A stretch of DNA of 64,000 bases from Pelagibacteraceae bacterium AG-426-G02. GTDB taxonomy: Bacteria; Pseudomonadota; Alphaproteobacteria; Pelagibacterales; Pelagibacteraceae. The DNA lies in the NCBI GenBank assembly GCA_003213155.1, contig QCNQ01000005.1, positions 1 through 64,000 on the forward strand, in the 5' to 3' direction. Under the pieces are notes generated by a model, which saw nothing but the letters and a program-made list of their open reading frames with translations, did not search any database and was not told the DNA's origin. Of this stretch, positions 614 to 53,965 are shown one piece after another; positions within the stretch are counted from its first letter, which is position 1, and each line of letters opens with the position of its first letter. Position numbers and translations under genes: made by a program.

Positions 614-3600
614 TTATTGATTTACAGGGGTTTCTGGCTGTTCAATCTGCTCTTGCTCAGAAAGAAATTTATTGTCATCTTGTAGAGCTTTTTTGTTCCA
701 TTTGTTTTTAATATTACCAGTTCCCGCAGGGACTAATCGTCCAACTATTACATTCTCTTTTAAACCATTAAGTGGATCAACTTTACCTTTAATAGCAGCA
801 TCTGTAAGAACTCTTGTAGTTTCCTGGAATGATGCAGCAGAAATAAAAGACTCGGTTTGCAGAGAAGCTTTAGTAATCCCCATTAAAACTCTTTCTCCAG
901 TAGCTGGCTTTTTACCCTCAGATTTTAATTTTTCATTAACATTATCAAATTTAATTCTATCAATGATTTCACCAGGTAAATAAGAGGAATCACCAGTTGT
1001 TTTTACTTCAACTTTTTTTAACATTTGTCTTAAAATAGTTTCTATGTGTTTATCGTTAATAATTACACCCTGTAATCTATAAACCTCTTGAACCTGATTA
1101 ACAAAATATTCAGTTAAATCTTTTATGCCCATAATTCTAAGAATATCGTGTGGTAATGGCTGTCCATCTAATAAATATTCTCCTTTTTTAATTTTTTCAC
1201 CTTGATTGAAATTAATATGTTTTCCTTTAGGTATTAAGTAATTAGATGGTTCAGATCCATCTTCAGGCACAATTGATATTCTTTGTTTTCCTCTAACTTC
1301 TTTTCCAAATATAACTTGTCCATCATTTTCAGCAATGATTGCACTATCTTTAGCTTTTCTAGCTTCAAACAATTCAGCAACTCTTGGAAGACCTCCAGTG
1401 ATGTCTTTAGTTTTAGTCGTTTCTTTAGGCAATCTAGCAATAACATCACCAGCAGAAACTTTTTGACCATCTTTCACTGATAAAATAGAGTCAGGAACTA
1501 AATAATATCTTGCTTCATTATCATCTGCTTTTTTAATAACGTTTCCTTTTTCATCTCTTAAAGTAATTCTTGGTTTTAAATCTGTACTTTTTGATTGAGA
1601 ACGCCAATCAACTACTGATTTTGAAGAGATACCTGTCGCATCATCTGTAGTCTCTTGAATAGATACACCATCAATTAAATCAACATAGCTTGCAATACCA
1701 CTTTTTTCAGCAATCACTGGGGTAGTATAAGGATCCCATTCACAAATTTTTGTGTTAGCTTTAACTTTGTCATCATTTTTAAAAAATAATTTCGAGCCAT
1801 AAGCTACTTTGTAAACAGCAATTTGAACTCCATTATCATCTTCAATAGATAATTGTGTATTTCTACCCATGACAATCAAGTTCTTTTTTGAGTCCTCTAA
1901 AATATTTGAGTTAATAATTTTTAAAGTCCCTTCATTTTTAGTGACAATTTGTGAATCTTGCTTGACTGAAGCGGTACCACCCACGTGGAAAGTTCTCATC
2001 GTTAATTGTGTTCCTGGTTCTCCAATTGATTGTGCAGAAATCATACCAATAGCTTCACCAACATGTACCATTTGACCTCTTGATAAATCTCGTCCGTAAC
2101 AGGTTGCGCAAACACCTTCTTTAGAACTACACGTCATAACTGAAAAAACTTTCAATGATTTTATTCCAGCAGAATCAATTTTATCACAACCAAATTCGTC
2201 TATCATTGATGATTTCTTGATTATTACTTCACCAGTTATAGGGTGCTTTACATCAGTTGCAACAACTCTACCTAAAGCTCTTTCGGATAGACTCACAACA
2301 ACATTACCACCTTCTAATATTTCTGATAATTCTATAAAACCAGGATTATCACAATTTTTTTTCGTAATTGTTAAATCTTGAGCAACATCACAAAGTCTTC
2401 TAGTTAAATAACCCGAACTTGCAGTTTTAAGTGCTGTATCAGCTAGACCTTTTCTAGCACCATGTGTGGAGTTAAAATATTCTAATGCAGTTAAACCTTC
2501 TTTAAAATTCGAGGTTATTGGACTTTCAATAATTTCACCTGATGGTTTTGCAATAAGTCCTCTCATTCCAGCTAATTGTTTCATTTGTGCTGCAGATCCT
2601 CTTGCTCCACTATCTGCCATCATAAATACTGAATTAATTTTCAATCCCTCTGAAGTTTTTTCTGTTGCAGAAATTCCTTTCATCATCTCACCAGCAACTT
2701 TATCAGTACATTTTGACCAAGCATCAACAACTTTATTATATTTTTCACCTCTAGTGATTAAACCTTCTGCATATTGCGTTTCATAATCAGCAATTAGTTT
2801 TTTTGTATCATTGATTAATTGCGTTTTGTTTTCAGGGATAACTAAATCATCTTTACCAAAAGAAATTCCAGCTTTAAATGCATGTTTAAAGCCAAGATCT
2901 TTTAATTTATCACAGAAAATGACTGTTGTTTTTTGACCACAAAATCTAAAGACAATATCAATTATTTCTGAGACTGTTTTCTTTGGTAAAATTCTATCAA
3001 TTAAAGAGAACTTAATATTATTATTTTTTGGTAATAAGTTTGCTAAAAGAAATCTTCCTGCAGTAGACGTATACTTTTCAAATTTTTGATTACCTTTTTC
3101 ATCAATTGTTTCAAATCTAGAAATAATTGTGCTATGGACTTTTATTTGACCAGAAGATAGCGCAAATTCAATTTGATCCGCATTTAAAAAATATCCAGCT
3201 GGTTTATCAGTGACTGGTTCTTGGGATAAATAATAAATACCTAAAATCATATCCTGACTTGGTACAATTATTGGTTTTCCATTAGATGGGGAAAGTATAT
3301 TATTTGTTGATAACATCAGTATTCTAGCTTCAAGTTGTGCCTCTAAACTCAAAGGAACGTGAACAGCCATTTGATCACCATCAAAATCTGCATTAAATGC
3401 TGCACATGTTAAAGGATGTAATTCAATCGCATCTCCCTCAATTAATTTTGGTTCAAAGGCTTGAACTCCCAACCTATGAAGTGTTGGAGCTCTATTTAAT
3501 AAAACTGGATGTTCTCTTACAATTAACTCAAGAGCGTCCCAGACGGCATTAGTTTCTTTCTCAACTAATTTTTTTGCTTGTTTAATTGTTGAAGCTAAGC

Positions 3601-25325: not shown

Positions 25326-27045
25326 ATGACAAATCTAAAAGAAATTTCAGATAATATCAAAAATAAAAATCTAAAAGAAGCATTGAGGTTATGTGAAATA
25401 TACAATGATAAAAAAAATCAGCACATCATATTTAATTTTAAAGGTGTCATACACCTAATTAAAAATGATTTAGAATTAAGTGAGCAATATTTTATTAAAT
25501 CCACAGAAATTCAACCCAAATATGAGGATCCTATAAAAAATCTTTATTTGGTTTACTTAAAAAAAAAACTTTTTAATAAGATGTTAGTTTATGCAAAGCA
25601 ATTAGTTGAAATTAATGAATTAAATGATGAATACAATTACCAATTAGCTTATGCTCACGAGTTAAATAATAATTTAGGTGATGCATTAAAATATTACACT
25701 AAATATCTAGACCTTAATGGTAAAAATAAAAAACAAGCCTTTAATAATATTGGCTGTATGTACCTAAAAAAGAATAAACCAAAAATTGCAAATGAATTTT
25801 TTCTTAAAGGAATTAAATTTGGAGAAGACCAAATAATCATAAATAATCTTCTAAATAGTTATATTTTATTAAGAGATTTAAAAAATTCTGAAATTTTTTT
25901 GAACAAAGCAGAAAATTTCGACAAAAATTTTATAGAATTCAAATATAATAAGGCAAAATTCTTAATTCTTAAAAATCAAATACAAGAAGCAATTAATATT
26001 TTGGATGAAAACAAAAATATTCCAAAATTTTTTATCACTCTTTTGATATTATATTCAAATATAAATAAAAAAGAAGAATGTGAAAAACTACTAAAACTAT
26101 CTAAAGATAATATAAAAAAAGAACCTGAGTTTTTAAATTATTATGGATTAAAATTACTATATGAAGGTAACTTTAGTAAAGGTTGGGAATATTATGAATA
26201 TAGAAATTCAAAAATTACTGATTTTTATAAGGATATTAAAGAATGGAATGGTGAAAAGATCAATGAAAAAAGTATTGTAGTCTTTAATGAACAGGGAATA
26301 GGAGATTCAATTCAATTTTCTAAATATATTATACCACTAACAAAAATAGCAAAAAAATGTAACTTTCATAGTTCAAAAAAATATAAAAGATCTTTTTAAA
26401 ATAGAGATTGACAACCTATCAATTGAAACTATTGAAAATTGTAGGCATAAACCATTTGATTTCAAAATTGCGTTAGGATCATTAATAAAATTTTTTTATG
26501 AAGAAAAATTTGTCGACAACAAAAATCTTATACAAACTATTAGAGAAAATGATTTAAAATGGAATGAAAAAATAATTAAAGATAAACTCAACATAGGTTT
26601 AGTTTGGTCAGGAAGTTTTAATGGTGCTAATGAACCTTTTAGATCTGTACCACTTAAATCTTTAAAAAAAATATTTTCAATAAATGCAAAATTTTATTGT
26701 TTACAAAATGAAATTTGGGATCGTGATTTGGATGATTTTCGTGCATCAAACTTAGAGGATTATAGTCAATATAAACTTGATGAAATTGCATCTATAATTA
26801 AAAATTTAGATTTAGTCATAACTAGTGACACATCAATATTACATTTATCAGCATCATTAAATATAGAAACATGGGGTATGTTAAGCCTACATCCTGATTG
26901 GAGATGGGGTGAATTCAATAAAATTAATCCATATAAAACTCTTAGAATTTTTCAACAAGAAAAATTTAATGACTGGAGTAATGTCGAAGATCAAGTTTAT
27001 AATGAGTTGAAAAAAAAAGTTGATTTGAAAATGTTAAAGCAATAG
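25326..27045 (+). pseudogene. TPR-repeat protein with a C-terminal glycosyltransferase-like domain, frameshifted
   Basis: One gene read in two frames. The first frame (25326-26399) encodes tandem TPR helices and the linker FNEQGIGDSIQFSKYI, then ends abruptly. The next frame continues the same domain without a break (AKNVTFIVQKNIKDLF, later LGLVWSG-like and DLVITSDTSILHLS) to 27045. Deleting one A from the A7 run at 26351-26357 restores a single protein of about 572 residues. TPR proteins with this GT9/heptosyltransferase-like end are often surface-glycan or O-GlcNAc-like enzymes. Base-calling error, real mutation or slippage are all possible. Its 3' end overlaps the convergent gene by 12 bases. 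Confidence 0.75.
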
Positions 27046-28197: not shown

Positions 28198-28203
28198 TTG
28201 AAT

Positions 28204-28903
28204 ATGGAATTTACCAAGTCTTTGATAAAAGGCAAATTAATCAAACGATATAAACGTTTTTTTGTAGATGTAAAAATAAATAAAGAAGTTGTGACCGCCC
28301 ATTGTCCAAATACAGGCTCAATGAAAGGTCTGCTTGATGAGGGAAATGAAGTCTTCTTACTCAAAAATGATAATCCAAAAAGAAAACTTAAATATGGTTT
28401 AGAATTGATTAAAGCCAATAATAATTTAGTTGGAGTAAATACTCACATGGCAAACAAAATTGTTGAACATGGTCTTAATGCTAATTTAATAAATGAATTA
28501 AAAAACAATGATAGCATTAAGTCAGAAGTTTTTTACAACAAAGAAACTAGGTTTGATTTTTTAATCGAGAAAAAAAAAACAAAAAAGCTTTATCGAAGTT
28601 AAAAATGTAACTCTTTTTAGAGAGAAAAAAACTGCTGAATTTCCTGACGCAATTACTACAAGAGGTTCAAAACATCTTCTTACACTTATTGATGCCATAA
28701 AAAAAGGTTATAAATCATACCTGATCTTTTTAGTTCAGATACAAAATATGGAAAATTTTAAAATTGCGAAAGATATCGATGAAGAATATTATAAAAACTT
28801 TCTTATTGCGAAAAAAGCTGGTGTTAATTTTCTTGCTTATAGATGTAAATTGAATTCAAAAGAAATTAGAATAGAAAAAAAATTAAATATTATTAATGAA
28901 TAA
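28204..28903 (+). pseudogene. sfsA: Sugar fermentation stimulation protein homologue, frameshifted
   Basis: SfsA family, a nuclease-like DNA-binding protein of uncertain role. The first frame (28204-28602) has the family start KGKLIKRYKRFFVDV and HCPNTGSMKGLL. It is cut after DFLIEKKK; the next frame continues with FIEVKNVTLF, FPDAITTRGSKHL and FLAYRCKL to the stop at 28901-28903. The switch maps to the A10 run at 28570-28579 (or the A6 just after); removing one A restores a normal protein of about 232 residues. The ATG at 28204 matches the E. coli start; a TTG at 28198 is less likely. The 3' end overlaps map by 8 bases. Confidence 0.85.
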
Positions 28904-41991: not shown

Positions 41992-43812
41992 TTATTCAAC
42001 GGTTACTGACTTTGCTAAATTTCTAGGTTTATCAATGTCATAACCTTTTTTTAGCGCTGAATAATAAGCTAATTTTTGCAAAGGAATGGTCAAAAGAAAA
42101 GGTAGTAAATCTTCATTAGTGCTTTCAACCTCGATTTTCTCCCAAATGTTTTCTGAAATTACCTCATCTTTACTTTTATTTGTGATTAACAAAACTTTAG
42201 CTCCCCTTGCAATTACCTCCTGCATATTTGAAATCGTTTTTTTATAATAATTATCTCTTGGAGCCAAAACTACAACTGGCATGCCCTCCTCTATTAATGC
42301 AAGAGGTCCATGTTTCATCTCACCAGCAGGATAACCTTCGGCGTGAATGTATGATAATTCTTTTAGTTTTAATGCACCCTCAAGAGCAATTGGATAAGAA
42401 AAACCCCGTCCCAAAAACATAGAGCCCTTAGCCTCATTAAAGGTATTTGAAATTGTTTGTATTTTGTTATCAATCAATAATGTTTGCTCAACAAGTTTTG
42501 GTAAATTTTTAAGATCGTCAATTTTTTTGTCAATTTGAGCTTTTTCGATATCCTTTCTCAATAGAGCAAGTTTCAATGCTAAAATATATAAAATTAATAT
42601 TTGTCCAAGAAATGCTTTGGTTGAAGCAACACCTATTTCAGTTCCACAATGTATTGGTAATACAAAATCAGCGTCTCTTGCAATTGAACTTTCTACTACA
42701 TTTACAACTGCACACGTTTTAACACCGCTTTGTTTACAAAGATCTAAAGCTGCATAAGTATCTGCTGTTTCTCCAGATTGTGATACAAATACATAAAGCG
42801 TCTCTTTTTTGAATCTATTTTTTCTGTATCTAAATTCTGATGCTATATCTATATTAACATCTAATGATGTTATTTCCTCAAACCAATATTTTGCCATCAA
42901 ACATGAGTGATACGCTGTTCCACATCCAATCAAGGTTATTGATGATATCTCATTACTTTTCCAAGGAAAGTTATAAATATTAATATCTTTATTGGACATA
43001 TCTATATACTCATTAATACCATTTCTAATTGTGTTTGGTTGTTCCTCAATTTCTTTAGCCATAAAATGTTTATAATCACCTTTGTCATATTTTTCTTCTG
43101 CAGAGGACAACTCTAAAACTTTTTTATTAATTTTGTTTCCTTCCTCACTAAAAAATTCTACATGATCTTTTTTAATAATGCAGAATTCACCATCATTTAA
43201 ATATGTAATCTTATTCGTCATCGATTTAAGCGCATAAGAGTCTGAACCCAGATAATTCTCATTAGGACCATAACCAACAGCTAATGGTGAACCTCTTCTT
43301 GCACCAACAATTAAATCTGGTTGATCTTTAAAAATTATACCTAGTGCAAAACTTCCGTGTAACGACTTCAAAGTTTTTTGAATTGAATTAACAATGTTTT
43401 CTGTTTTAAGATTTTCAGTGATTAAATGGACTATTACCTCTGTATCAGTCTGAGATTTAAATTTGTGACCTTTGCCAATTAAAAATTTTTTCAAAATTGT
43501 TGAATTTTCAATAATTCCATTATGGACAACAGAAACGTTTTGTGAAGAATGTGGATGAGCATTAATACTATTAGGGAGCCCGTGAGTTGCCCATCTCACA
43601 TGGCCAATACCAATAGTTCCCCCCATGTTTTGAACTAAGGAATTTTTTTCCAAATTTTCTACTCTGCCCTCAGATTTAACTTCGTTTATCAATCCATTAT
43701 AGAGGGTTGCCATACCAGCTGAGTCATAACCTCTATATTCTAATTTTTTTAGAGAATTAATTATAGTTGCTGATACAGGTTTATTGCTATTAATTCCAAT
43801 TATTCCACACAT
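41992..43812 (-). CDS. glmS: Glutamine-fructose-6-phosphate aminotransferase
   Basis: Makes glucosamine-6-phosphate, the entry to peptidoglycan and LPS amino sugars. The 606-residue protein has the N-terminal nucleophile C2 (MCGIIGI), the glutaminase GHVRWATHG loop, two SIS sugar-binding domains (SQSGETADTYAALD; GEMKHGPLALIE) and the C-terminal KPRNLAKSVTVE. It starts 2 bases after the GlmU-like acetyltransferase gene, so consecutive pathway steps are coupled. Confidence 0.98.
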   Translation of the reverse strand: MCGIIGINSNKPVSATIINSLKKLEYRGYDSAGMATLYNGLINEVKSEGRVENLEKNSLVQNMGGTIGIGHVRWATHGLPNSINAHPHSSQNVSVVHNGIIENSTILKKFLIGKGHKFKSQTDTEVIVHLITENLKTENIVNSIQKTLKSLHGSFALGIIFKDQPDLIVGARRGSPLAVGYGPNENYLGSDSYALKSMTNKITYLNDGEFCIIKKDHVEFFSEEGNKINKKVLELSSAEEKYDKGDYKHFMAKEIEEQPNTIRNGINEYIDMSNKDINIYNFPWKSNEISSITLIGCGTAYHSCLMAKYWFEEITSLDVNIDIASEFRYRKNRFKKETLYVFVSQSGETADTYAALDLCKQSGVKTCAVVNVVESSIARDADFVLPIHCGTEIGVASTKAFLGQILILYILALKLALLRKDIEKAQIDKKIDDLKNLPKLVEQTLLIDNKIQTISNTFNEAKGSMFLGRGFSYPIALEGALKLKELSYIHAEGYPAGEMKHGPLALIEEGMPVVVLAPRDNYYKKTISNMQEVIARGAKVLLITNKSKDEVISENIWEKIEVESTNEDLLPFLLTIPLQKLAYYSALKKGYDIDKPRNLAKSVTVE

Positions 43813-43814
43813 AA

Positions 43815-44438
43815 CTATTTAGACTTTCTTTTATAATTATTGATTTCAGTCTGTAAACTTCTTGTTAGAGCTAAAGATTTTCTTTTTACATTTTTTGTAA
43901 TTACAGATCCAGCACCAATTACGCTTCCCTCTTCGATTGTTAATGGTGCAACCAATGACGAATTTGAACCAATAAATACTTTATCTTTAATCTTAGTTTT
44001 ATTTTTTTTTACTCCATCATAATTACAAGTAATTGTTCCAGCTCCAACATTTACTGATTTGCCAATTTCACTATCACCGATATATGTTAAATGGTTTACT
44101 TTTGAATTTATACCTAAAGTACTTTTTTTAATTTCAACAAAATTTCCAACTTTTGAACCATTTTTTAAGATTGTACCAGGTCGTATTCTAGCATAAGGGC
44201 CAATATCGACTTTATTTTCTATTTTACAATTTTCTAAATGTGAAAAGGATTTTATAGTAACATTGTTTCCAATTTTAACTTTGGAACCAATTACCACGTA
44301 AGGCTCTATAGTAACATTCTTTCCAATCTTGGTATCTTTTGAAAAAAATATTGTTTCAGGACCAACCATTACCACACCTTTTTTTAAAAATTTTTTTCTA
44401 AGATTACTTTGAACTTGCTGTAAATTTAATTGTTTCAT
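43815..44438 (-). CDS. glmU: GlmU C-terminal half: glucosamine-1-phosphate acetyltransferase, stand-alone
   Basis: A 207-residue left-handed beta-helix protein aligning with the acetyltransferase half of GlmU. The catalytic and binding residues of E. coli GlmU have counterparts: R86, K104, H116, Y119 and N130 (in RPG, FVEIKK, NHLTYIGD and VNVGAGTITCNYDG). The N-terminal uridylyltransferase domain (about 230 residues, GTRM motif) is absent, and the upstream DNA belongs to the divergent gph, so this is not a frameshift. UDP-GlcNAc formation would need a separate pyrophosphorylase. Confidence 0.85.
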   Translation of the reverse strand: MKQLNLQQVQSNLRKKFLKKGVVMVGPETIFFSKDTKIGKNVTIEPYVVIGSKVKIGNNVTIKSFSHLENCKIENKVDIGPYARIRPGTILKNGSKVGNFVEIKKSTLGINSKVNHLTYIGDSEIGKSVNVGAGTITCNYDGVKKNKTKIKDKVFIGSNSSLVAPLTIEEGSVIGAGSVITKNVKRKSLALTRSLQTEINNYKRKSK

Positions 44439-44509
44439 CTATTAAATTCTTTATATTAAGTGTATATGTTTCTTAATTCACAAAATATTTCTTAATAAAA
44501 CTTTTAATT

Positions 44510-45193
44510 ATGAGGCAAAAATTTACAATTCTTTTCGATTTAGATGGAACTTTAGTTGATACGGCCCCAGATTTAATGCGAGCACATAATCATGTAATGA
44601 AAAAATTTGGTTATCCAACAAAATCTACTGAGGAGATAAGAAATCTTGCCGGTCAGGGTGCTGGTGCAATGCTTGGACGATCAATATGGGGGCAAGCTAA
44701 GAAAGAATTTGGAAAAGTAGAAGATGAAAAAATTAAAAAAGAAATGATAAAAGATTTTAAAGATTTCTATGGAAAAAATATTGTAAATGAAAGCACTTTA
44801 ATCAACGGGGTGAAGGATTTTTTAATATGGTCAAAGAGGAATAAAATTTCTATGGCAGTTTGTACAAATAAGACTGATTACCTGGCTGTTGATCTTTTAA
44901 AAAAAATCGGCATATATGATTTTTTTGAATATGTGGCTGGTCATAATACTTTTGATTATTGTAAACCTGACCCAAGGCATCTAACCTCTGTAATAGAAAT
45001 ATTAGATGGTGACATAAAAAAATCGTTGATGATTGGAGATAGTGAAACTGATGCTAATGCAGCTAAGAGTGCTGGTATTCCAGTCATTTTAATGGAAGAT
45101 GGATATACTGAAAAAAATATAACTGAAATTTACCATAATCACTTAGTAAAAGACTTTATTGGTATTGAAAAAATAGTATCAAAATATCTTTAA
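44510..45193 (+). CDS. gph: Phosphoglycolate phosphatase-type HAD hydrolase
   Basis: A 227-residue HAD phosphatase with motif I FDLDGTLVDTAPDL, motif II CTNKTD, and motif IV MIGDSETDANAAKSAG. It probably hydrolyses 2-phosphoglycolate, a by-product of DNA repair or oxygenase chemistry. Order gph next to glmU and glmS is known in other alphaproteobacteria. It is read divergently from the GlmU-like gene across 71 bases that hold a 9-base direct repeat (TTTCTTAAT at 44469 and 44488). Confidence 0.88.
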   Translation: MRQKFTILFDLDGTLVDTAPDLMRAHNHVMKKFGYPTKSTEEIRNLAGQGAGAMLGRSIWGQAKKEFGKVEDEKIKKEMIKDFKDFYGKNIVNESTLINGVKDFLIWSKRNKISMAVCTNKTDYLAVDLLKKIGIYDFFEYVAGHNTFDYCKPDPRHLTSVIEILDGDIKKSLMIGDSETDANAAKSAGIPVILMEDGYTEKNITEIYHNHLVKDFIGIEKIVSKYL

Positions 45194-52510: not shown

Positions 52511-53965
52511 ATGTCAGTAAATTTAAAAATCGACCCCTATGGTTTTAGAGAATATGACGCTCGATGGTTGTATGAAAAAGACATAAATCTCCTTGGTATA
52601 ACGAATCTTGGCAAAGGACTAGGCACACAAATTATAAAACAAACAAACAAAACTAATCCGAGGATAATTGTCGGTCATGATTATCGATCTTATAGCGAAG
52701 ATATAAAAACAGCACTTAAAAAGGGTTTAGTTTCAACAGGTTGCCATGTTGAAGATGTAGGTTTGTCTTTGTCTCCGATGGTTTATTTTGCACAATTCCA
52801 TTTTAATTCTGATGCTGTTGCAATGGTAACTGCAAGTCATAACGACAATGGTTGGACAGGTGTAAAAATGGGTATTAGGAAAGGATTAACACATGCACCT
52901 GAAGAAATGAGAGAATTAAAAGAAATAACATTAAGTGAAAACTTTGTAAACGGACAAGGTCAGGAAAAAAAAATAGAAAATTTTCAAGACATATATAAAC
53001 AAAGCTTAATAGATAGCAATAAAATCAAAAAAAAAATAAAAGCAGTGGTAGCATGTGGCAATGGAACTGCAGGAATTTTTGCTCCTGATATTTTACGTGG
53101 AATTGGTTGTGACGTAATAGAACTTGATTGTAATTTAGACTGGACCTTCCCTAAATATAATCCTAATCCAGAGAACTTGAAGATGCTACATGCGATTTCA
53201 GATGCTGTTAAAAAAAATAATGCTGATATAGGGTTTGGATTTGATGGTGATGGTGATAGAGTTGGAGTAATTGATAATGAAGGAAATGAGATATTTTCGG
53301 ATAAAATAGGATTATTAATTGCAAGAAGTTTATCAAATAAATATAAAAATTCTGTTTTTGTAGTAGATGTGAAGTCAACAGGATTGTATGCGAATGATAA
53401 ATTATTAAATTCAAATAAATGTAAAACAATTTATTGGAAAACTGGTCATTCACATATCAAAAGAAAAGTAAACAATGAAAACGCCTTAGCTGGATTTGAA
53501 AAAAGTGGGCACTTTTTTTTCAATGAACCTTTGGGTTATGGGTATGACGATGGTATCAATTCAGCGATCCAAGTTTGTCATTTATTGGATGATCAGAACA
53601 AAAAAATGAATGAAATCATTAAAGAAATTCCAAAAACATTTCAAACACCTACTATGGCTCCTTATTGTAAGGATGAGGATAAATATGCGTTGGTTGATAA
53701 AATTATTAAAGATATTGAAAAACTGAAAAATGAAAAAGTTAAAATTGATGACCAAGAAATTAATGAAATTTTGACAATAAATGGCGTTAGATTTTCATTT
53801 AAAGATGGCTCATGGGGTTTGATAAGAGCATCCTCTAATAAACCTTCGTTAGTAATTGTAACAGAAAGTCCTACATCCGATGATAGAAAATTAAAAATAT
53901 TTAGATTTATAGATTCTTTACTTCAAAAAACGGGTAAAATTGGTGAATACGACCAAAAAATTTAA
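52511..53965 (+). CDS. Phosphomannomutase/phosphoglucomutase
   Basis: Interconverts hexose-1- and hexose-6-phosphates for glycan and nucleotide-sugar synthesis. The 484-residue alpha-D-phosphohexomutase has the phosphoserine loop TASHNDNGWTG, the metal loop GFDGDGDRVGV, the sugar-specificity loop FEKSGHFFF (expected GE.SGH) and the C-terminal phosphate-binding region RASSNKPSLV. EKSGH instead of GEMSGH is a small departure. It would supply glucose-1-phosphate for NDP-glucose used by GpgS. The stop codon directly abuts that of the coiled-coil gene (TAATTA). Confidence 0.9.
   Translation: MSVNLKIDPYGFREYDARWLYEKDINLLGITNLGKGLGTQIIKQTNKTNPRIIVGHDYRSYSEDIKTALKKGLVSTGCHVEDVGLSLSPMVYFAQFHFNSDAVAMVTASHNDNGWTGVKMGIRKGLTHAPEEMRELKEITLSENFVNGQGQEKKIENFQDIYKQSLIDSNKIKKKIKAVVACGNGTAGIFAPDILRGIGCDVIELDCNLDWTFPKYNPNPENLKMLHAISDAVKKNNADIGFGFDGDGDRVGVIDNEGNEIFSDKIGLLIARSLSNKYKNSVFVVDVKSTGLYANDKLLNSNKCKTIYWKTGHSHIKRKVNNENALAGFEKSGHFFFNEPLGYGYDDGINSAIQVCHLLDDQNKKMNEIIKEIPKTFQTPTMAPYCKDEDKYALVDKIIKDIEKLKNEKVKIDDQEINEILTINGVRFSFKDGSWGLIRASSNKPSLVIVTESPTSDDRKLKIFRFIDSLLQKTGKIGEYDQKI

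Follow-up and report, generated by a model that had tools for sequence, protein, structure and literature searches.

A GlmU reduced to its acetyltransferase half in SAR11 bacteria, with GalU as a candidate for the uridylyltransferase step

A half-length glmU gene beside glmS

In bacteria GlmU is usually presented as one enzyme with two activities, and as a drug target. The window analyzed here, meaning the whole stretch of 64,000 nucleotides, carries a half-length glmU gene (glmU-C) on the minus strand at 43815..44438, whose 207-aa product was identified from profile and structure-chain matches as the linker and left-handed beta-helix acetyltransferase half of the enzyme. The NF010933 model aligns with it over model positions 241-435 of 453 (301 bits), and TIGR01173 over positions 234-450 of 452 at 250.8 bits, below the full-length cut-off of 366.85. 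Solved full-length GlmU chains align with the protein in their C-terminal part only, the best being 7k47 (residues 290-459, E 8.1e-52). The uridylyltransferase domain, which corresponds to TIGR01173 model positions 1 to about 230, is absent, and the ATG of the open reading frame is the first start codon past the upstream stop. The protein contains the motifs ARIRPG, FVEIKKS, NHLTYIGD, GAGTITCNYDG, IGSNSSL, GAGSVIT and ALTR, most residues of which are invariant or nearly invariant across ten aligned full-length GlmUs.

Only 2 bp downstream on the same strand lies glmS, encoding glutamine--fructose-6-phosphate transaminase (41992..43812, minus strand; TIGR01135 754.9 bits, cut-off 418.05). On the other side, the layout of open reading frames leaves a divergent intergenic stretch of 71 bp (44439..44509) before a gph-like HAD phosphatase gene on the plus strand (44510..45193), which matches PGP models below their cut-offs. 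It is on the 44439..44509 side of the gene that relatives with a full-length GlmU carry the uridylyltransferase domain, and the gap to the gph-like gene is therefore too small for the GlmU N-domain. We thereby confirm that 43815-44438 encodes the linker and acetyltransferase half of GlmU alone. A preliminary description of this DNA had proposed a GlmU cut to its beta-helix half, with the acetyl-transfer residues kept and with coupling to glmS; the first point is borne out by a model match that begins at position 234 and by the short upstream gap, the second by intact and mostly invariant acetyltransferase motifs, and the third by the position and strand of glmS. The protein shares with bifunctional GlmU (TIGR01173/NF010933) the acetyltransferase half with its motif residues, the linker, the glmS neighbor and the orthologous place, but unlike that enzyme it is without the uridylyltransferase domain and scores below the full-length cut-offs. 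GlmU-C is predicted to be active by itself as a GlcN-1-P acetyltransferase. Elsewhere in the window, two genes appear truncated or frame-broken in the assembly, namely a 134-aa SfsA-like ORF (28198-28602) and a TPR-like gene in two pieces (25326-27045).

Distribution of full-length and half GlmU genes

The genome from which the window was taken (contig C5, bases 1-64000) comprises 1.04 Mb in 33 contigs and is 82.67% complete. A TIGR01173 search of this genome returned 14 matches, none of them above the full-length cut-off; the best match to the N-domain part (E 7.4e-14) is RfbF-like by gene context. PF12804 gave 7 matches in the same genome. The N-domain matches were rejected as a stand-alone GlmU-N: they are RfbF, HddC-like, MurU, GalU, KdsB, IspDF and ManC proteins and one protein encoded beside an epimerase, with identities assigned by gene context and, for some, by family call. 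We then consider a set of 41 genomes, made up of this genome and 40 relatives at least 90% complete, of which 16 have a full-length GlmU: all 12 members of the sister family (f2) and all four other members of the class. Full-length GlmU is found in none of the 25 genomes of the window's own genus (g1), among whose 24 relatives two are single-contig. The GlmU half is present in 21 of the 25, and the four genomes without it are also without glmS, which indicates that the locus is missing from those assemblies.

The same division extends through the order, where we searched 248 genomes (the window's own included, the others at least 85% complete). A match above the full-length cut-off occurs in 23 of them (f2 17, f1/g9 2, f1/g11 4), and a match at E <= 1e-50 but below that cut-off in 195; among the matches listed, all of those below the cut-off start at model positions 212-255. 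The remaining 30 genomes have no GlmU match; 20 are among those listed, all g1, and the locus was checked in four of the 30. The earlier claim of a split pathway, with the uridylyltransferase elsewhere or of another type, named no candidate and is upheld, in favor of another type: we looked for a full-length glmU in the window's own genome and in its 24 genus relatives, and none has one. A paralogue or assembly artefact, with a full-length glmU elsewhere, might be entertained for a draft genome of this completeness and contig number, but this reading has a vanishingly small probability and is in effect already refuted, being ruled out by single-contig relatives (G003, G015, G042, G045 and others), which give only below-cut-off, half-type matches, and by the orthologous place that glmU-C occupies.

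The gph-like gene is the divergent neighbor of glmU among both the halves and the full-length genes of the order, and the arrangement of gph-like gene, divergent glmU and following glmS is common to the two, which argues that the N-domain was lost in place. A core-protein tree was built from seven proteins (4270 columns), whose names were read from protein starts; some rows are without some proteins, with the window's own genome and g11 represented by RpoB/RpoC only. It recovers (g1,(g12,g13)), which we refer to as clade I, and (g10,(g9,g11)), with support 100. Within the second group g10 has the GlmU half while its sisters g9 and g11 have the full-length gene. Forcing all GlmU halves together on the seven-protein tree costs 91 log units (p-AU 1.65e-46); a single loss is rejected, and the N-domain was therefore lost at least twice or regained in place. 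There is good support for loss on at least two occasions, in clade I and in g10, and for GlmU having been dismantled repeatedly and on a lineage-wide scale in SAR11; regain in place is an unlikely alternative to repeated loss. A tree of GlmU-C and GlmS places g9 beside g1, again without uniting the halves, and its order is contradicted by the longer core-protein tree, which is preferred.

A frameshift in the N-domain interrupts the full-length glmU of one single-contig g11 genome (G137, L178), with region 2859-3136 beside an ORF at 1758-2858. The copy in a sister genome (L177) is intact, and the frameshift reflects a sequencing error or, alternatively, another loss that is under way. Truncation of GlmU is not reported in the titles and first parts of abstracts of the SAR11/Pelagibacter papers listed from one open library, and the glmU passages available from PMC3423634 deal with Chlamydiales.

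Demand for UDP-GlcNAc and candidate enzymes

The window's own genome encodes LpxA and LpxD, both above their cut-offs. LpxA uses UDP-GlcNAc, and the retention of the two proteins implies that demand for this precursor persists. In the pathway that we propose, GlmS would provide GlcN-6-P, a phosphohexomutase would convert it to GlcN-1-P and GlmU-C would acetylate this to GlcNAc-1-P; the final step, from GlcNAc-1-P and UTP to UDP-GlcNAc, would most likely be taken by GalU of the galU-ugd pair. The window holds a phosphohexomutase gene at 52511-53965, with best scores to the archaeal-type GlmM and PgmG models and below both cut-offs, whose product is a candidate for the phosphoglucosamine mutase step.

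Relatives with more contiguous assemblies offer a short list of nucleotidyltransferases. G015 (one contig, 99% complete) has only ManC-, GalU- and MurU-type proteins by PF00483, to which PF12804 adds MobA together with IspDF and KdsB, the last two judged by length. G003 further contains RmlA-like and MocA-like proteins, and G023 (3 contigs) an RmlA-like protein. As candidates for GlmU-N, the best PF12804 matches in these three genomes were rejected as MobA, encoded next to MoeA and FdhD, and one G003 match as MocA-like, adjoining xanthine-dehydrogenase-type genes. Four further PF12804 (NTP_transf_3) matches in G023, of 254, 465, 250 and 228 aa (C1:602964, C2:309022, C1:205445 and C1:217586), are without counterpart in G015. 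The eukaryote-type UAP family (PF01704, UDPGP) matched none of 13 genomes, in a search whose control likewise matched nowhere.

A MurU homologue is present in every genome of the set of 41, the 25 of g1 and 16 others. GalU at a minimum of 65% identity occurs in 24 of the 25 g1 genomes, three of these being partial or broken, and was not found in G006 (90% complete). The galU of G001, a 96% complete g1 genome, is broken by a frameshift (L127, 793-1609), which is an error or marks a pseudogene. None of the 12 f2 genomes has GalU at this identity; a close GalU is seen in g1, in g9-g13 and in two of four class outgroups, unlike f2. The presence and absence of GalU and full-length GlmU looked complementary, and a gain of GalU as a replacement for GlmU-N was considered and rejected: g9 and g11, which have full-length GlmU, carry galU-ugd, as do two class outgroups, and GalU is therefore ancestral and no replacement gain.

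The clade-I protein is the galU orthologue by its place, panC-galU-ugd, and by best family match, in both of which it resembles GalU as modelled by TIGR01099. The GalU of the window's own genome scores 255.9 bits against that model, below the cut-off of 326.8, and GalUs with ordinary residues are also below it (272.3 bits in g9, 248.2 bits in g10). The closest named matches listed for it are 96-97% identical, all from uncultured Pelagibacteraceae, on which basis the genome is assigned to SAR11. In 80 of 80 loci galU directly precedes ugd, and in 79 the ugd match starts just inside the end of galU; clade-I GalU has therefore presumably kept its production of UDP-glucose. UDP-Glc is used by a SAR11 glycolipid enzyme, as described in passages of PMC8231724.

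GalU changes and the competing explanations

To compare GalU columns between clades, 26 rows of clade I were set against 4 of clade III; partial or broken GalUs of G012, G001 and G024 (L126-L128) were left out, and the g12 locus L220 has no GalU match. GalU has fixed differences between the clades at 12 of 264 columns, compared with 4 of 261 for PanC and 1 of 423 for Ugd. At six GalU columns the outgroups agree with clade III, which places the changes K21S, L72Y, L109T, Y168W, Q228H and M233I in clade I. Among 25 proteins compared as a panel from the same genomes, the highest rate is shared by GalU (12/262) and a protein represented by just two rows of clade III (10/216). GalU has 6 changes in 262 columns on the clade I branch, versus 16 in 4062 for 12 other proteins with an outgroup (Fisher p 0.0015, post hoc); Ugd has 1 in 424. 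The panel outgroup consists of class loci for GalU and Ugd and mainly of f2 for the others; names such as SecY-like, RpoC and ribosomal were read from protein starts, and RpoB was out, with fewer than five clade-I rows. A SecY-like protein (11/296 fixed differences in the panel) and GpmA (8/234, in a separate comparison with only two clade III rows) are also high, and the count of changes in GalU taken alone is therefore weak; we find their placement more telling.

Conservation also differs between the two neighbors. Within g1, identity is 76.9% for GalU versus 70.8% for Ugd, and between g1 and g12 it is 67.1 versus 65.3; GalU is likewise higher within g12. It is no more conserved than Ugd when g13 is compared with g12 or with g1, and every comparison involving clade III has Ugd as the more conserved of the two. 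The residues GTG and W are present in all 26 clade-I rows and in every one of 80 named GalUs from Pelagibacteraceae, which are the best 80 of at least 542 relatives of the own GalU and therefore no independent sample of the clade. Of 16 solved GalUs matched, nine were aligned, two of them YngB, and these nine agree on GLG, Y, Q and K; the clade-I protein has GTG in place of GLG and, for the other three residues, W, H and S. M233I also occurs among ordinary solved GalUs and is not special.

By hhalign profile alignment, GalU 109 aligns with the Thr of the GlmU motif GTGHA, and S21 and T109 of clade-I GalU are residues found in GlmU. Mapped through an RmlA-like protein, GalU 109 corresponds to RmlA 89, 168 to 146, 228 to 199 and 230 to T201 (1iim numbering, with a +2 offset read from the aligned 1iim row), which puts Q228H two before the T201 position. 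We take RmlA Leu89 and Tyr146, aligned to GalU 109 and 168, to contact the sugar, and the changed GalU sites (21, 109, 168, 228) may, from these alignments, line the sugar pocket. Archaeal-type bifunctional GlmU (TIGR03992) and Sulfolobus ST0452 offer a comparison: their nucleotidylyltransferase is of the RmlA/GalU kind and takes GlcNAc-1-P, but it is fused to the second domain, whereas in SAR11 the two would be separate genes. An engineered RmlA carries the same Leu-to-Thr change at the site aligned with GalU 109, and this L89T substitution is described in passages of PMC9415975 as increasing sugar-1-phosphate tolerance. The engineered protein is a laboratory thymidylyltransferase variant, whereas the clade-I GalU change is natural and fixed in the clade. 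According to passages of PMC8606822, GlcNAc-1-P is accepted by a Glc-1-P uridyltransferase from Streptococcus thermophilus and was not taken by Ss-RmlA, an RmlA.

On this comparison of sequences we propose for clade I, with confidence evenly poised, that GlmU-C makes GlcNAc-1-P and that a widened GalU makes UDP-GlcNAc as well as UDP-Glc. The N-terminal domain of GlmU would have been deleted in place, the C-terminal domain would have been retained as a separate acetyltransferase beside glmS, and GalU with its altered sugar pocket would serve both Glc-1-P and GlcNAc-1-P. More tentative is the fuller history, in which a pocket change in the GalU of the clade-I ancestor produced a dual UDP-Glc/UDP-GlcNAc pyrophosphorylase and freed GlmU to shed its uridylyltransferase half, with g10 as a separate loss served by another substitute. 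The GalU of g10 keeps K21, L109, Y168, Q228 and M233 although this genus has lost the GlmU N-domain; the signature therefore does not track the loss in every lineage, and g10 needs another route, perhaps MurU.

The same ordinary residues in g10 bear on a different reading, which we regard as unlikely yet the strongest of the alternatives: that the changes in GalU have a different purpose (UDP-galactose, UDP-GlcA flux or regulation), have nothing to do with GlmU and simply fell on the same branch. It would suit the constant adjacency of galU and ugd, and the HTCC7211 glycosyltransferase that passages of PMC8231724 describe as using UDP-Glc, UDP-Gal and UDP-GlcA. The agreement of S21 and T109 with residues seen in GlmU speaks against it. 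So does the alignment of the changed positions with RmlA sites that we presume to lie on the sugar side.

A further alternative, rather improbable in our estimate, is that MurU can act on GlcNAc-1-P too and supplies UDP-GlcNAc in every lineage with a half GlmU. A MurU homologue occurs in every g1 genome versus 24 of 25 for GalU, its presence in g10 could account for both losses, and AmgK is kept, whose NCBIfam models, matched below cut-off, are named MurNAc/GlcNAc kinase. MurU has, however, a job of its own, since MurNAc recycling looks present from the retention of AnmK (6/6 g1 genomes tested), a GH3 NagZ-like protein (6/6) and tsaE-amgK-murU, and relatives with a full GlmU carry MurU as well. 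P. putida MurU prefers MurNAc-1-P. SAR11 MurU also changes quickly (mean identity 56.2% within g1), and between g1 and two rows of clade III it has 2 fixed differences in 228 columns, neither of which f2 polarises; AmgK has 1 in 306, with two g1 rows outside the length filters. In keeping with MurU (NF045761) of the AmgK-MurU shunt, tsaE, amgK and murU stand together in most g1 loci read, and among solved proteins P. putida MurU 4y7t matches best; the SAR11 protein differs in scoring 105.7 bits where the cut-off is 250, and a clade-I shift was not seen in it. In the g10 genome G045, murU has been rearranged away from tsaE-amgK and now overlaps argF (L195 10278-10982, L215 911-1813), while tsaE-amgK remained near polA and dnaA; a g10 murU without amgK was accordingly rejected, amgK being near dnaA there. 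In Caulobacter, GlmU (CCNA_02389) lies beside MupP (CCNA_02390), as given in passages of PMC13046382. By analogy of place, the gph-like gene at 44510-45193 may encode the MurNAc-6-phosphate phosphatase of the MurU shunt.

Least probable of the three is a UDP-GlcNAc enzyme that has a different fold or belongs to a family not yet recognised, for example an accessory uridyltransferase of the GlmR/YvcK type, which we consider doubtful. Listeria GlmR makes UDP-GlcNAc from GlcNAc-1-P and UTP according to passages of PMC10128056, G023 has its four PF12804 matches to place, and g10 requires some other route in any case. Such an enzyme is without a positive sign in these genomes, and the clade-I GalU signature would then be coincidence.

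Returning to the reading that we prefer, takeover by GalU, a step belonging to one enzyme family would have been captured in nature by another, through a substitution at which engineers arrived independently, and a few residues should then switch sugar specificity. SAR11, among the most abundant bacterial groups in the sea, has dismantled GlmU, and a half gene annotated as bifunctional GlmU would conceal a gap in SAR11 metabolic models.
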